Part shown: positions 20,127-26,553 of the stretch, piece after piece
Position numbering within the stretch: the first letter of the stretch is position 1
Layout of the letters: every line of letters begins with the position of its first letter
DNA from: Flavobacteriales bacterium
GTDB lineage: Bacteria; Bacteroidota; Bacteroidia; Flavobacteriales_G; Salibacteraceae
Length of the DNA stretch: 64,000 nucleotides
Direction: 5' to 3'
Assembly (NCBI GenBank): GCA_018660685.1
Contig: JABJJW010000002.1
Span: 1 to 64,000 of the forward strand
Translations under genes and position numbers: made by a program
Notes under the pieces: model-generated
Seen by the model: the letters and a program-made list of their open reading frames with translations, nothing else
Told to the model about the DNA's origin: nothing
Database searches by the model: none

Positions 20127-20236
20127 CGTGCAAATTTTCGCAAAGAAACTATTTCAAGATAGAATTCAAGCACTTCAGTTAACATGCGTATTTGAAAACT
20201 TTCAACCTTGCCACACCTTCAAGCTTGTCCTCAATT

Positions 20237-20244
20237 TAGCTTTG
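20237..20244 (+). promoter_or_regulatory. -7 box TAGCTTTG before the YwqK-repeat gene
   Basis: A perfect TAnnTTTG match that ends five bases before the ATG at 20250. If used, the transcript would begin at or next to the start codon. It also argues against the upstream TTG (20208) as the start. Confidence 0.45.
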
Positions 20245-20249
20245 ATCTC

Positions 20250-21866
20250 ATGCGACCAATACTCATTATTTTCCTCTTCGCTGCGTTCACATCCACTGCT
20301 CAAGAGAACTCATCTCCTGTTGTGCCTAAGGTTCAAAAGCAACCTTATGTCGACTTCTATGATGATGATCAAACTCAGAAGTACAGTGAGGGAATGTTTC
20401 TCAATGGGAAAAAGCACGGTCCTTGGATCTACTATTACCAAAATGGGAAGAAGCAAGAAGAATCCAATTACAACAATGGCAAGCATAGCGGTAAGGTCAC
20501 TTATTGGTATGACGATGGCCAACGAAAGGCCGAAGGATATTTTAAATTATACTTTCAAAATGGTCTTCTTACTACGCTGAGAGACAGCATATACAGGTCA
20601 TGGTATCCGAATGGAAATCAATCAGAAAAAGGAGAATATGACTACGATGTGAAAATCGGTGAGTGGTCGACTTATTTTCCTGAAGGTGATCTGTGGAAGA
20701 AGGTTCTTTATGTTGGTGGGGCGATGCACCCATTCGAAGGTTGGAATAAGGAGTTGATCCAGACACTCAACAATGGGAATGGAATTCTATATGATTATTA
20801 TGAGGCCGGACCACTCAAGTCGCTTGTGACCATAAAGGATTCGATAATTAATGGGCTGACTCAGCATTATTGGGAAAACGGAAACTTGAAGTCGGAAGGC
20901 ACAACTGTAGATATCGAGCAGGTCGGCTTATGGAAGTATTTCTACGAAGAAGGCGAGAAGTGGAAAGAGATTGAATATGAAGGAGGGGAGTTGGATGGCG
21001 CCTACCGTAACTGGTATCCAAATGGTGAGTTTAGTGTGACTGGAACTTATTCAAAAGGAGCTAAGAATGGTAAATGGATCTGGTTTAATTCGACTGGTAA
21101 GTTATACATGCAGGGCGAGTTTCAGTCTGGGAAGCAACATGGTCACTGGCTTTACTATTTCGAAAATGGAAAAGTGGAAAGTGAAGGAGAGTTCGCTGAC
21201 GACCTTCGAGAAGGTGCTTGGAAAATGTTCTATAAGAATGGAGCGAAATGGAAGTTAGGTTCTTACAAAAAAGATAAGAAAGACGGTTTTTGGCAAACCT
21301 TTTTTGAGAATGGTACCAAGTTGCAAGAGGGTAATTATACCAGTGGAAAGGAGAATGGAAAGTGGAGTTCTTGGTATGAGAATGGTCAACTGAAAGATGA
21401 AGGTGTATACAAGGAAGGATTGATGCACGGTAATTGGGTCGGAAACTTCAACAATGGTAAGACGAACTATGAAGGCGTTAGAATGAATGGATTAAAGGAT
21501 GGCGCATGGAATTATGGCTATCTAAGTGGCAAGCCAAGGGAACAGGGGTCATATAAGGACGGAAAGAAGGATGGTGCTTGGGTTTACTACTATGAGGCCG
21601 GAAATGTTGACTATGAATGTTCTTATAAGGAAGGCTCAAAAAATGGGAAGTGCACGTACTATTTCCCGCATGGTTCCAAAATGAGAGAAGAGGCCTATGA
21701 AATGGATCGACTCAGCGGCGCCAGTAAAATGTGGAACAAGACGGGAACACTGATCAGTTTACGCAATTATAAGAACGGAGTACCTCATGGAAAGGCCGTC
21801 AATTACGATGACGATGGAAAGGTTCTAAACTCAATGACCTACAAAGAAGGAGCAAGGCAGAAATAG
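20250..21866 (+). CDS. Secreted YwqK/MORN-type repeat protein
   Basis: A 538-residue exported protein, starting at ATG 20250 (signal peptide MRPILIIFLFAAFTSTAQ). Nearly all the rest is a tandem array of about 20 repeats of roughly 23 residues with the form 'Y-x-x-G-x-x-x-G-x-W-x-x-Y-Y-x-N-G', for example KHGPWIYYYQNGKKQEE and KDGAWVYYYEAGNVDYE. Pfam places such repeats in the MORN_2 / YwqK 'toxin-antitoxin antitoxin' family, but no toxin gene is adjacent and a signal peptide does not fit a cytoplasmic antitoxin. A beta-solenoid binding surface in the periplasm or at the cell surface is more likely. There is no type IX sorting domain. Confidence 0.75.
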   Translation: MRPILIIFLFAAFTSTAQENSSPVVPKVQKQPYVDFYDDDQTQKYSEGMFLNGKKHGPWIYYYQNGKKQEESNYNNGKHSGKVTYWYDDGQRKAEGYFKLYFQNGLLTTLRDSIYRSWYPNGNQSEKGEYDYDVKIGEWSTYFPEGDLWKKVLYVGGAMHPFEGWNKELIQTLNNGNGILYDYYEAGPLKSLVTIKDSIINGLTQHYWENGNLKSEGTTVDIEQVGLWKYFYEEGEKWKEIEYEGGELDGAYRNWYPNGEFSVTGTYSKGAKNGKWIWFNSTGKLYMQGEFQSGKQHGHWLYYFENGKVESEGEFADDLREGAWKMFYKNGAKWKLGSYKKDKKDGFWQTFFENGTKLQEGNYTSGKENGKWSSWYENGQLKDEGVYKEGLMHGNWVGNFNNGKTNYEGVRMNGLKDGAWNYGYLSGKPREQGSYKDGKKDGAWVYYYEAGNVDYECSYKEGSKNGKCTYYFPHGSKMREEAYEMDRLSGASKMWNKTGTLISLRNYKNGVPHGKAVNYDDDGKVLNSMTYKEGARQK

Positions 21867-21891: not shown

Positions 21892-21899
21892 TATATTTG
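21892..21899 (+). promoter_or_regulatory. -7 box TATATTTG for rimP-nusA-infB
   Basis: A perfect TAnnTTTG match 51 bases before the rimP ATG. Transcription would start near 21905, upstream of the hairpin at 21916-21942. Confidence 0.5.
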
Positions 21900-21915
21900 C
21901 GGCGTCAAATGAATC

Positions 21916-21942
21916 TGAGGGGAAGTTCCCCTCATTTTTTTT
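21916..21942 (+). terminator. Intrinsic terminator or attenuator in front of rimP
   Basis: A perfect 8-bp stem TGAGGGGA/TCCCCTCA with a 3-nt loop AGT, followed by eight T residues: the classical rho-independent form. It lies 50 bp after the stop of the YwqK-repeat gene and 7 bp before the rimP ATG. It could end the upstream transcript. However, it also lies downstream of the perfect -7 box at 21892-21899, so the rimP transcript itself would have to read through it. Confidence 0.75.
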
Positions 21943-21949
21943 ACGTGTA

Positions 21950-22399
21950 ATGCCGATTTCTGAAGCACATATCAGAAACCTTGTTGAGGAGAAACTAGCT
22001 GATACTTCGATGTTTATCGTCGAACTCACAGTCGGATCTTCCAATAAGATTAAGATTGAATTAGACTCCTTAGACGGGGTCAATATCGATGATTGTGTAG
22101 GGGTAAGTCGACATGTTGAGCATCAGTTGGATCGCGATGAGACTGATTTTGAGTTGCAGGTGAGCTCAGCCGGAATAGACAAACCTTTGCGAGACAAGAG
22201 GCAATACACGAAAAACGTGGGTAGGGAAATAAAGGTGCGAACCCTTAGCGGTGATGAGTTGAAAGGAAAACTTGTTTCAGCAACAGAGGAGATCAAACTG
22301 GAATTGCCTGCAAACAAAAAGAAGAAGTTGCCAGTGCGTGAAGCAACGGTTGCTTGGGAAGAAATAGCGGAAACTAAAGTCATTATATCATTTAAGTAA
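21950..22399 (+). CDS. rimP: Ribosome maturation factor RimP
   Basis: A 149-residue protein that assists maturation of the 30S subunit. The family pattern is visible: an N-terminal domain with SEAHIRNLVEEKLADTSMFIVELTV, the conserved IELDSLDGVNIDDCVGVSRHVEHQLD segment, and VSSAGIDKPLRDKRQY (the 'SPGxDRPL' motif as SSAGIDKPL). A C-terminal Sm-like domain begins near 95. It is first in the standard rimP-nusA-infB operon, with 11 bp to nusA. The terminator-like hairpin directly upstream may control its expression. Confidence 0.93.
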   Translation: MPISEAHIRNLVEEKLADTSMFIVELTVGSSNKIKIELDSLDGVNIDDCVGVSRHVEHQLDRDETDFELQVSSAGIDKPLRDKRQYTKNVGREIKVRTLSGDELKGKLVSATEEIKLELPANKKKKLPVREATVAWEEIAETKVIISFK

Positions 22400-22410
22400 A
22401 GGAACAAGCA

Positions 22411-23646
22411 ATGAATGCTATAGAGCTTATTGAATCGTTTCAGGATTTTAAAGAATTCAAGAACATTGATCGGGTTACGATGATGCACATCTTGGAGGAC
22501 GTAATCCGCTCTATGATTGAAAAGGAGTTTGAAGATGATTCAAACTTTGACGTAATCATAAACCCAGATAAGGGTGACCTCGAGATCTGGAGAAACAGAA
22601 TCATCGTTGAAAACGGTGCTGTAGAAGACGACCTTCAAGAAATTGAGTACAAAAAAGCGATTCTCATCGAACCTGACTTTGAGGTTGGTGAAGAAGCGTC
22701 AGAAGAATACAAAATCGAAAACTTCGGTCGAAGAGCAATTCTCTCACTTCGTCAGAATCTTGTTGCTAAAATTCAGGAGCTGGAGAAAGATTCGATTTAC
22801 AAGAAGTACAAGGATAAGGTTGGCGATATTATCACTGGGGAGGTTTATCAGATCTGGAAGCGAGAAATTCTCGTTTTGGATGATGAAGGGAATGAATTGG
22901 TTCTTCCTAAGTCAGAACAAATTCCAACCGACTACTTCAAGAAAGGAGATACAGTTCGAGCGGTTGTGAGCAAGGTTGACATGAAGAATGCCAGCCCTAT
23001 TATCATTCTTTCAAGAACAAGTCCTTCATTCTTGGAGCGATTATTCGAAATGGAAGTTCCGGAGATCTTCGACGGATTGATTACAATCAAGAAGATTGTT
23101 CGTGAGCCAGGAGAGCGTGCTAAAGTTGCGGTTGAATCATACGATGACAGAATTGATCCGGTAGGAGCATGTGTCGGAATGAAAGGGTCGCGTATTCATG
23201 GAATCGTAAGAGAATTGAGAAATGAGAACATTGATGTGATCAATTTCACTGGCAATTCTCAACTATTCATTCAACGATCGCTTAGTCCAGCTAAGATCAC
23301 CAACATTACTCTGAACGATGATAATGGCCATGCCAGTGTTTATCTGAAACCAGACCAAGTTTCACTTGCGATTGGAAAAGGCGGACACAACATTAAGTTG
23401 GCTGGGAAGCTCACCGGATATGAAATTGATGTTTTTCGTGAATCCGAAGAGGATATTGAAGATGTGGATTTGGAAGAATTTGCAGATGAAATCGATTCTT
23501 GGATCATTGATGAACTCAAGACAATTGGATGTGATACGGCAAAAAGTGTTTTGGAAATCAGCCCTGGTGATTTGGTAAAACGAACAGATCTGGAGGAAGA
23601 AACGATTAAGGAAATCATGGGCATCCTAAAGGCTGAATTTGAATAA
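22411..23646 (+). CDS. nusA: Transcription termination/antitermination factor NusA
   Basis: A 411-residue protein that binds RNA polymerase and modulates pausing, hairpin-dependent termination and antitermination. An N-terminal polymerase-binding domain (1-125) is followed by an S1 domain (about 137-195, GDIITGEVYQIWKREILVLDD). The KH1 domain has GACVGMKGSRIHGIVREL (about 250-270) and KH2 has SLAIGKGGHNIKLAGKLTGYEI (about 310-332). The C-terminal end is a helical SWIIDELKTIGCDTAKSVLE segment. The length is normal for organisms without the full acidic repeats. It is second in the operon. A AAAGGA motif about 7 bp upstream of the ATG is one of the few Shine-Dalgarno-like sites in the window. 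Confidence 0.96.
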   Translation: MNAIELIESFQDFKEFKNIDRVTMMHILEDVIRSMIEKEFEDDSNFDVIINPDKGDLEIWRNRIIVENGAVEDDLQEIEYKKAILIEPDFEVGEEASEEYKIENFGRRAILSLRQNLVAKIQELEKDSIYKKYKDKVGDIITGEVYQIWKREILVLDDEGNELVLPKSEQIPTDYFKKGDTVRAVVSKVDMKNASPIIILSRTSPSFLERLFEMEVPEIFDGLITIKKIVREPGERAKVAVESYDDRIDPVGACVGMKGSRIHGIVRELRNENIDVINFTGNSQLFIQRSLSPAKITNITLNDDNGHASVYLKPDQVSLAIGKGGHNIKLAGKLTGYEIDVFRESEEDIEDVDLEEFADEIDSWIIDELKTIGCDTAKSVLEISPGDLVKRTDLEEETIKEIMGILKAEFE

Positions 23647-23688: not shown

Positions 23689-26553
23689 ATGGCAGAAGGC
23701 GCACCGATACGACTAAGTAAAGCACTACGAGAACTCAACGTGGGGATGAACTCCGTGGTCGATTTCCTTGATACCAAGGGGATATCTATAGATGCCCGTC
23801 CGAACACCAAATTGGATGTGGATACCTATGGATTGCTAGTTGAGGAATTTGCTCCGGATCGTGCTAAAAAGCAGAAGTCCGAAGCCCTTGCTGATCAAGT
23901 GGTTGTGCGTGAAACGATCACGTTAGCTGACCAGAAGAAATCTAAGATTGACAAGAAGCAGGATCAGGATGAAATCTTGATTAAGAACGTTGGAGGATTT
24001 ACTGAAGTCGAAGTTATTGCGCCTGAGCCCGTGGTAGAAGAGAAACCCGCGGAGTCTGAAAAGAAAGAAGAGCCCACAACCGAGGCTCCAAAAGAAACTC
24101 CAAAACAAACCACTCCCCCTGCGCCCAAGAGCGGACCTACTGTTGTAGGAACGATTGATCTAAGTACCGTTAAGTCGAATCGACCTACGAAAAAGGAAGA
24201 ACCGAAAGCCACAGAAAAGCCTGTTACTAAGCCGGCTAAAGCGACGGCTGAAAAGCCGGCTGATACGGCAGCCAAGGAAGTTCAAAAGGCTGAGGAAGCT
24301 GAGAAACCGAAGGAGACGAAGGAAGTTAAAGAGGTCAAAGAGACCAAAGAAGAAATTCCTGTGGCACCTGTTTCTACAAAACCTGAGTTCATCGAAACGA
24401 AGGTTAAGAAGCTTGATGGGCCAAAGTTTGTCGGAAAAATTGACCTTCCGCCACCCACTGTAAAGCCTGCGAAGAAGGTAGGAGAGTCAGCGGATGACAA
24501 AGGCAAAAGAAAGAGAAAGCGTATATCAAAGGTTGTTCCTGGTAAGCAGTTTGATCATGGAAAACCACAGAGAGGTGGTGCCGGTGGAGGATCCAGACCC
24601 GGACCCGGAGGCCGTAGAGGTCAGAGTACCGTTCCTAAACCCGAGTTAACCGAAGAACAAATTCAAAATCAGGTTAGAGAAACGCTCGCTGCTCTTAAGA
24701 GCAAGGGTAAGTCTAGCCGATCAAAGTATCGTAGAGAACGTCGTGAGGCGGTCAGCGAGAAAATGCAAAAGGAACTTGAGCAGCAGGAAGAAGATCAGTC
24801 GGTCCTTAAGCTAACCGAGTTTGTTACGGTGAGTGAGCTTGCTACAATGATGGATGTTTCGCCGACTGAGGTGATTTCAATGTGTATGTCCATCGGAATG
24901 ATGGTGTCTATTAATCAACGTCTCGACTCAGAAACACTGACTCTTCTCGCTGAAGAATTCGGATATACTGTTGAGTTTGTTGGAGCAGACATCGAAGAGA
25001 CTATTCAAGAAGAAGAAGATGATGACCTAGATTCATTAGAAGGTCGTCCACCGATTGTAACCGTAATGGGTCACGTCGATCACGGTAAAACATCTCTACT
25101 TGATCACGTCCGTAGAGAAAATGTTATCGCTGGTGAAGCGGGGGGTATTACCCAGCATATCGGCGCTTATAGCGTTGCTTTGGAAAATGGGAAGACGATT
25201 ACGTTCCTAGATACTCCAGGTCATGAAGCTTTTACCGCAATGCGGGCACGAGGTGCACAGGTCACGGATATCGCCATTATCGTTATTGCCGCTGATGATG
25301 CAGTAATGCCTCAAACTGTTGAGGCAATCAATCACGCGCAAGCAGCAGGCGTTCCTATGGTTTTTACATTCAACAAGATTGATAGAGATGGAGCTAACGC
25401 CGACAAGATTCGGGAACAGTTAGCGAACATGAACATTCTCGTAGAAGACTGGGGCGGTAAGTACCAGTGCCAGGAAATTTCTGCAAAAACTGGATTGAAT
25501 ATCCAGGAATTGCTTGAAAAAGTTCTTCTTGAAGCTGAGTTGCTCGAACTGCAGGCAAATCCGAACAAAGCTGCACGTGGAACGGTAATCGAGGCAACTT
25601 TGGACATCGGAAGAGGTTACACCACAACGCTTCTAGTTCAATCAGGAAATTTAAATATCGGTGATGTCATGCTAGCGGGCAGTCACTTTGGACGAGTTAA
25701 AGCCATGTTCAACGAGCGCGGAGCGCCAATCGAAACAGCGGGACCTTCCATGCCGGTTAGTTTGTTGGGAATGAATGGCGCCCCAAATGCAGGTGATTCA
25801 TTCCTCGTGATGGAGGATGAGCGTGAGGCCAAAAACATTGCGGCAAAGCGTCAACAATTGCAGCGAGAACAAAGTATTCGTACTCAGCGTCGTCAAACGC
25901 TTGAAGACATTGGTGAAATCTTACAGAAAGGGGATTACCATGAGCTCAACCTAATTATCAAAGGTGATGTGGATGGTTCAGTGGAGGCCTTAGCGGACTC
26001 TATGCTCAAACTCTCTACCGAGAATATTGCAATCAACGTAATCCATAAGTCGGTCGGACAAATATCCGAGTCGGATGTGTTGCTGGCCACTGCGTCAGAC
26101 GCTGTAATTATTGGTTTCCAGGTTCGGCCTGCTAGTCAAGCTAGAAAGAGAGCAGAAGGAGAAGGGATTCAAATCCGTCTTTACTCAATTATCTATGATG
26201 CCATCAATGATATGAAGGCAGCAATGGAAGGAATGCTCAAGCCGAAAATCGAAGAACAAGTCGTTTGCAACATTGAGGTTAGAGAAACTTTCAAGATCAG
26301 TAAGGTCGGAACTATTGCCGGTTGCTATGTGCTCGATGGTACGATAAGCAGAAACACAAAAGTTCGCCTGATCCGAGATGGCATCGTTCAGTACACTGGA
26401 TCATTGGGATCACTCAAGCGCTTCAAGGAAGATGTCAAGGAAGTAAAGACTGGCTTCGAGTGCGGTCTGAACATCGAAAACTACAACGACATCAAAGTCG
26501 ATGACATCATCGAAGGCTTTGAAGAAGTTGAAGTTGCCAGAAAGCTTGAGTAA
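23689..26553 (+). CDS. infB: Translation initiation factor IF-2
   Basis: A 954-residue GTPase that brings initiator tRNA to the 30S subunit. An N-terminal IF2_N domain (1-55) is followed by a long Lys/Glu/Pro/Ala-rich linker (about 60-350) with a [16 protein letters not shown] stretch, and a second IF2_N-type helix bundle (about 370-430). The GTPase domain has GHVDHGKT at 461-468, DTPGHEAF near 507 and NKID near 562. The beta-barrel and C-terminal domains complete it. It is last in rimP-nusA-infB. Its stop codon ends at the base next to the stop of the convergent SPOR gene. Confidence 0.97.

Follow-up and report, generated by a model that had tools for sequence, protein, structure and literature searches.

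Genes and elements at the locus

We analyzed a 64,000-nucleotide stretch of DNA (the window) from a Flavobacteriales bacterium that contains the rimP-nusA-infB operon; all of the features described here are on the forward strand. The first gene of the operon, rimP (21950-22399; PF02576, PF17384, NF002531), is followed by nusA (22411-23646; TIGR01953), whose product has NusA_N, S1 and KH domains and is the effector that we propose below, and by infB (23689-26553; TIGR00487), which encodes IF-2. Upstream of rimP and co-directional with it is a gene with MORN_2 (YwqK-type) repeats (20208-21866; PF07661; start codon uncertain) that stops at 21866, 49 nt before the stem of the hairpin described next.

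The region just upstream of rimP contains a promoter box followed by a terminator-shaped hairpin. The box, TATATTTG (21892-21899), read from the window sequence, has the pattern TAnnTTTG, which in Flavobacterium psychrophilum serves the main sigma factor as its -7 box, at -12 to -5 (accessible text of PMC9723704). The same spacing would place the start of transcription of the rimP operon at 21904. The hairpin has a G-rich 5' arm, TGAGGGGA (21916-21923), a loop, AGT (21924-21926), and a C-rich 3' arm, TCCCCTCA (21927-21934), making a stem of 8 bp with a 3-nt loop (21916-21934) and a GGGG/CCCC core. Eight T (T8; 21935-21942) directly adjoin the stem and are the predicted 3' end of a terminated leader RNA of ~39 nt, and 7 nt separate the T-run from the rimP ATG (21950). 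The arms were evident in the sequence, in a terminator scan and in the predicted fold, the loop in the sequence and the fold, and the T-run in the sequence and the scan. An earlier reading of this DNA, made from the sequence only, had claimed the box, the 8-bp hairpin with its 3-nt loop, the T8 and the rimP ATG, and each was found at its position.

The predicted leader is short, ~46 nt from the start to rimP. The 39 nt from 21904 to 21942 fold at -13.7 kcal/mol (z of -2.38; 5 of 200 shuffles were equally stable) into the hairpin with a few additional pairs outside it, and no larger antiterminator element was visible in the ~46-nt leader or in the fold of the 39 nt. The window has no TTG at -33, unlike its relatives (below), and the stem found in its genus is without the AC/GT pairs that are common in other families.

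The combination of hairpin and box is beyond chance, and neither the hairpin alone nor the box alone is. There were 15 terminator-like sites in 19 kb versus 15.7 expected from shuffles, the rimP hairpin being listed first, and 22 occurrences of the box pattern in the window versus 42.5 expected. In a 937-kb sample of the same genome, a strong hairpin precedes 25 of 664 genes, and rimP is the only one of the 664 that has such a hairpin with a box within 50 nt. None of the 24 other strong pre-gene hairpins in the sample has a box within that distance, and two of the 24, read by eye, have GGG in the 5' arm and CCC in the 3' arm. The pattern GAGGGGN(3-12)CCCCTCWTTT has a single match in the 2.58-Mb genome, at the rimP leader. 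That the hairpin is this genome's general type of terminator was ruled out: the stem pattern is single-copy and the other hairpins are without a box within 50 nt.

Conservation of the hairpin and the box in Bacteroidia

The hairpin, its G-rich and C-rich arms and the promoter box are conserved together upstream of rimP. We oriented 192 rimP loci (30 and 22 from RimP searches, which gave more places than were taken, 60 picked from the same searches for family coverage, and 80 named) and dropped six near-identical leaders, leaving 186 distinct leaders that still include related genomes, so that the counts are not of independent events. A fixed test was applied in three steps: a stem of at least 6 pairs, at least 4 of them G-C, with a T-run; then GGG..CCC in the stem; then a TAnnTTTG box no more than 50 nt upstream. 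The strong hairpin with T-run was present in 182/186 leaders, compared with 7/930 shuffles and 41/1864 other windows of the same loci. With the GGG..CCC stem as well, the counts were 170/186, 2/930 and 4/1864, and with the box as well, 156/186, 0/930 and 0/1864. By family, the motif was found in 45 of the 46 sampled, with the box too in 43. Most of the leaders that failed the test still have a hairpin by eye, for example L067, which has a weak T-run, and L097 and L012, which have a different stem. The hairpin was missing from the expected place in two of the 186 leaders, L122, in which none was found, and L169, which has one further upstream.

The spacing of the elements is also constrained. 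The G-run was 12-34 nt from the box in the 154 leaders measured. With the box placed at -12 to -5, the predicted terminated RNA in these leaders is 32-53 nt long, with a mode of 47-51 nt; that in the window is 39 nt. Among 153 leaders, TTG peaked 21-23 nt before the start of the box (13, 50 and 28 occurrences at the three distances), which is the expected -33 position, and we therefore conclude that the promoter is conserved together with the hairpin.

The presence of the hairpin does not depend on the gene upstream of rimP. Orientation of the upstream neighbor was taken from mechanical calls of ORFs of at least 90 aa, some of the shorter of which may not be genes. The hairpin was present in 89/91 loci with a divergent upstream ORF (68/70 when that ORF was at least 180 aa) and in 85/87 loci with a co-directional one. 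In the remaining 8 of the 186 loci, a tRNA was nearest (four loci), there was no call (three) or the sequence was too short (one). In one relative (L106), the gene upstream of rimP has YwqK-type repeats, as judged from its translation, and points away from rimP, and the rimP hairpin is still there. Because the hairpin is equally present with divergent and co-directional neighbors, it is not merely a terminator of the upstream gene, and termination of the upstream transcript as its sole role is refuted as a general explanation by the divergent loci. The sequence-only reading had proposed this comparison, and the hairpin is indeed kept when the upstream gene differs. Its simpler alternative, that the hairpin only ends the transcript of the YwqK-repeat gene, fails in general and survives as a possible additional role here: the window hairpin may also end transcripts of the co-directional MORN_2 gene.

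Sequence and specificity of the stem

The flanks of the GGGG/CCCC core are paired far more often than expected. The commonest stem was GAGGGGAC-nnnn-GTCCCCTC, followed by T. Anchored on the core, flanking positions paired in 134/142 (-2), 134/142 (-1), 123/132 (+1) and 98/116 (+2) cases, each higher than the maximum over 1000 shuffles, and position -3 paired in 84/142, tying that maximum. This anchored count is the measure of pairing that we trust; a table of pairs from stems that had themselves been found by pairing is circular, the MAFFT alignment (A2) misplaced 5' arms and was not used for pairing, and a further alignment (A4) combines the two strands, and no pairs were counted in it. In two leaders the whole stem has been swapped with the T-run kept, to the paired GAGGCACGC/GCGTGCCTC in L097 and to the paired GAGGCCG/TGGCCTC in L012; both are natural compensatory swaps.

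The stem motif is largely confined to the rimP leader. The pattern TTTGC..GAGGGG..CCCCTC matched 37 times, in 34 of the 60 relatives, compared with 9 times for a reversed control pattern. By eye, 32 of the 37 were in the sense orientation before rimP, three were in rimP leaders in the antisense orientation, and two were elsewhere. Of the phylum's genomes, 395 in all, 53 had matches to a covariance model of the hairpin (R1), and 28 of the 30 best matches retrieved lie before rimP. Only 17 candidates were scored in each genome, and weak members, the window's own hairpin among them, were missed, so that the search speaks to specificity only and not to prevalence. Strong matches to the hairpin model at L206 (G080:C1:3348474-3348507) and L214 (G420:C53:26235-26268) have no rimP nearby. 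We found no relevant match to Rfam, which has a rimP family (RF01770), in 1 kb of the window or in five relatives, and no RimP relative was found in viral contigs.

A hairpin with a T-run also precedes rimP in other classes of the phylum. Allowing loops of up to 16 nt, since a stricter finder had missed several, we found it in 32/34 rimP loci compared with 12/340 control windows, and a box-like element was present in 18 of the 34 loci. Many of the stems at these loci (L224-L257) are unrelated to those in Bacteroidia, for example a long-loop AGTGAG...CTCGCT, and each is consistent within its family. Judged by the sequences, the feature that is kept at rimP is a predicted terminator at this place, and Bacteroidia strongly prefer a particular sequence for it.

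Relation to known rimP and nusA attenuators

The hairpin belongs to a kind of attenuator that is already known. The rimP-leader attenuator was described by Naville and Gautheret (2010), who name Firmicutes and Gammaproteobacteria (PMC2965389). According to the accessible text of that paper, it precedes rimP of rimP-nusA-infB, has a G-rich 5' arm, a C-rich 3' arm and a T-run near the start codon, is without an antiterminator, and has a stem motif essentially limited to this leader, all of which is common to the element described here. The published distance from terminator to gene start is 4-130 nt, into which the 7 nt between the T-run and the ATG in the window fit. The published logo is GGGc(...)gCCC, compared with GGGG(A)...(T)CCCC here; its c-g pair is in lower case, and we took it as not strictly defining. 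The pair next to the core is A-T in the window and C-G in 27 of 149 relatives paired there, a count that is circular in that it comes from stems found by pairing. Unlike the attenuator described in PMC2965389, the element here has a TAnnTTTG promoter fixed just upstream. The string 'Bacteroid' was not found in the main text of that paper.

Leader termination ahead of nusA has been reported in two other bacteria. In Streptococcus agalactiae, RNA-seq placed termination of the rimP-nusA-infB operon at an intrinsic terminator 31 nt downstream of its mapped start, with a short and a long transcript from one start, and feedback by NusA was proposed (PMC4448216, accessible text). That case is from another phylum, with another type of promoter, and was mapped by RNA-seq, whereas the distance here, 39 nt, is predicted. 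In Bacillus subtilis, the 5' leader of the nusA operon has an intrinsic terminator at which NusA stimulates termination and thereby regulates its own synthesis, as stated in a review (PMC12288461, accessible text). The B. subtilis leader is 180 nt long (PMC2965389), compared with ~46 nt predicted here. At the corresponding position, directly ahead of rimP, E. coli K-12 carries GGGC-TTTA-GGCCC-T7.

Within Bacteroidota, the closest report is from F. psychrophilum, in which transcript mapping identified a structured 5' element before rimP, one of several conserved 5' elements there, that is conserved in Flavobacteriaceae and has no Rfam match (PMC9723704). It concerns the same gene in the same phylum, and the accessible text gives no terminator, no role of NusA and no wider distribution for it. 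We found nothing closer on a rimP or nusA attenuator in Bacteroidota in the main texts of open-access papers, and the accessible parts of PMC7247131, PMC7366714 and PMC2864571 held no mention of nusA or, in some of them, of rimP or infB. We conclude that the element is a Bacteroidota member of the rimP-leader attenuators and not a new kind of system. What is new is its phylum-wide extent and its minimal leader, which are apparently undescribed at such breadth in Bacteroidota.

A model for attenuation of the rimP operon

We think it probable that the hairpin attenuates transcription of the rimP-nusA-infB operon close to the promoter, and that it is probably driven by NusA. RNA polymerase would start at about 21904, behind the TATATTTG box, and within ~39 nt would make an RNA with the G-rich/C-rich hairpin and a U8 tract, both of which can be read in the DNA. 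It would then either stop at the T-run (21942) or read on into rimP, nusA and infB. A leader of this length leaves no room for an obvious antiterminator to compete with the hairpin, so the decision probably falls to a protein that acts on the polymerase-hairpin complex. NusA would be the likeliest such protein: by analogy with other bacteria, ample NusA would cause more termination and less expression of its own operon, and when NusA is scarce polymerase would pass the terminator. The sequence-only reading had considered negative autoregulation by attenuation plausible; the leader role in that proposal is now strongly supported by conservation with the box and independence of the upstream gene, and the NusA part is drawn by analogy (PMC2965389, PMC4448216, PMC12288461). 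Points against the model are the missing -33 TTG in the window, the absence of the usual AC/GT pairs from the stem in its genus, and the two leaders with no hairpin where one is expected. NusA may also work differently in Bacteroidota than in Bacillus or E. coli.

It is unlikely that the hairpin attenuates the operon with termination set by a factor other than NusA, such as RimP, NusG or translation of the leader. The position in the leader is solid whichever the effector, and the window has a 13-codon ORF (21909-21950) that runs through the hairpin and T-run and whose TAA overlaps the rimP ATG (TAATG), a layout shared by L013. However, ORFs through the hairpin were present in 49 of 154 leaders versus 30% with shuffled spacers, no more often than by chance, which indicates that they are not selected, and a leader-peptide attenuator was dropped on these grounds. 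The evidence from other bacteria, in the accessible texts, also names NusA (PMC4448216, PMC12288461, PMC2965389).

We consider it quite improbable that the hairpin is a constitutive element, either an unregulated partial terminator that lowers output or a 5' hairpin that stabilizes the mRNA. Conservation by itself does not show regulation, and no antiterminator is visible. Against this, protection of an mRNA does not need a T-run, and the T-run has been kept. Moreover, terminators of this type are stimulated in other bacteria by the product of the operon's second gene, and in E. coli the rimP-nusA-infB operon has been reported to be under feedback (cited in PMC2965389, accessible text). Finally, the window hairpin could do no more than end the MORN_2 transcript in the usual way, rimP being transcribed from a promoter at some other place. 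This reading fits the orientation and proximity of the MORN_2 gene and is nonetheless very improbable, given the hairpins at divergent loci, L106 among them, and the box, which in the window lies between the end of the gene and the hairpin and in 156 of the 186 leaders is no more than 50 nt upstream of the hairpin.

Attenuation in the rimP leader would extend a known attenuator to Bacteroidota in a minimal form, with ~40 nt from start to stop and the phylum's own type of promoter, and would account, throughout the phylum, for the structured element reported ahead of rimP in one flavobacterium. It would also be a testable case of a general elongation factor that controls its own level. The hairpin is short and unique and the phylum's model species are amenable to genetics, making the role of NusA and the question of sequence versus structure simple to test.

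A more tentative idea, possible and in our view doubtful, is that the sequence of the stem is itself read by NusA or RimP, and that the G-rich hairpin is one ancient element common to Bacteroidota, Proteobacteria and Firmicutes. If it is correct, few transcription attenuators would be as widely conserved as this element. In its favor, the GGGG/CCCC core is near-invariant, which pairing alone would not demand, and is rarely found outside the rimP leader; the swaps of whole stems in L097 and L012, and the different stems of other classes, argue against the idea.
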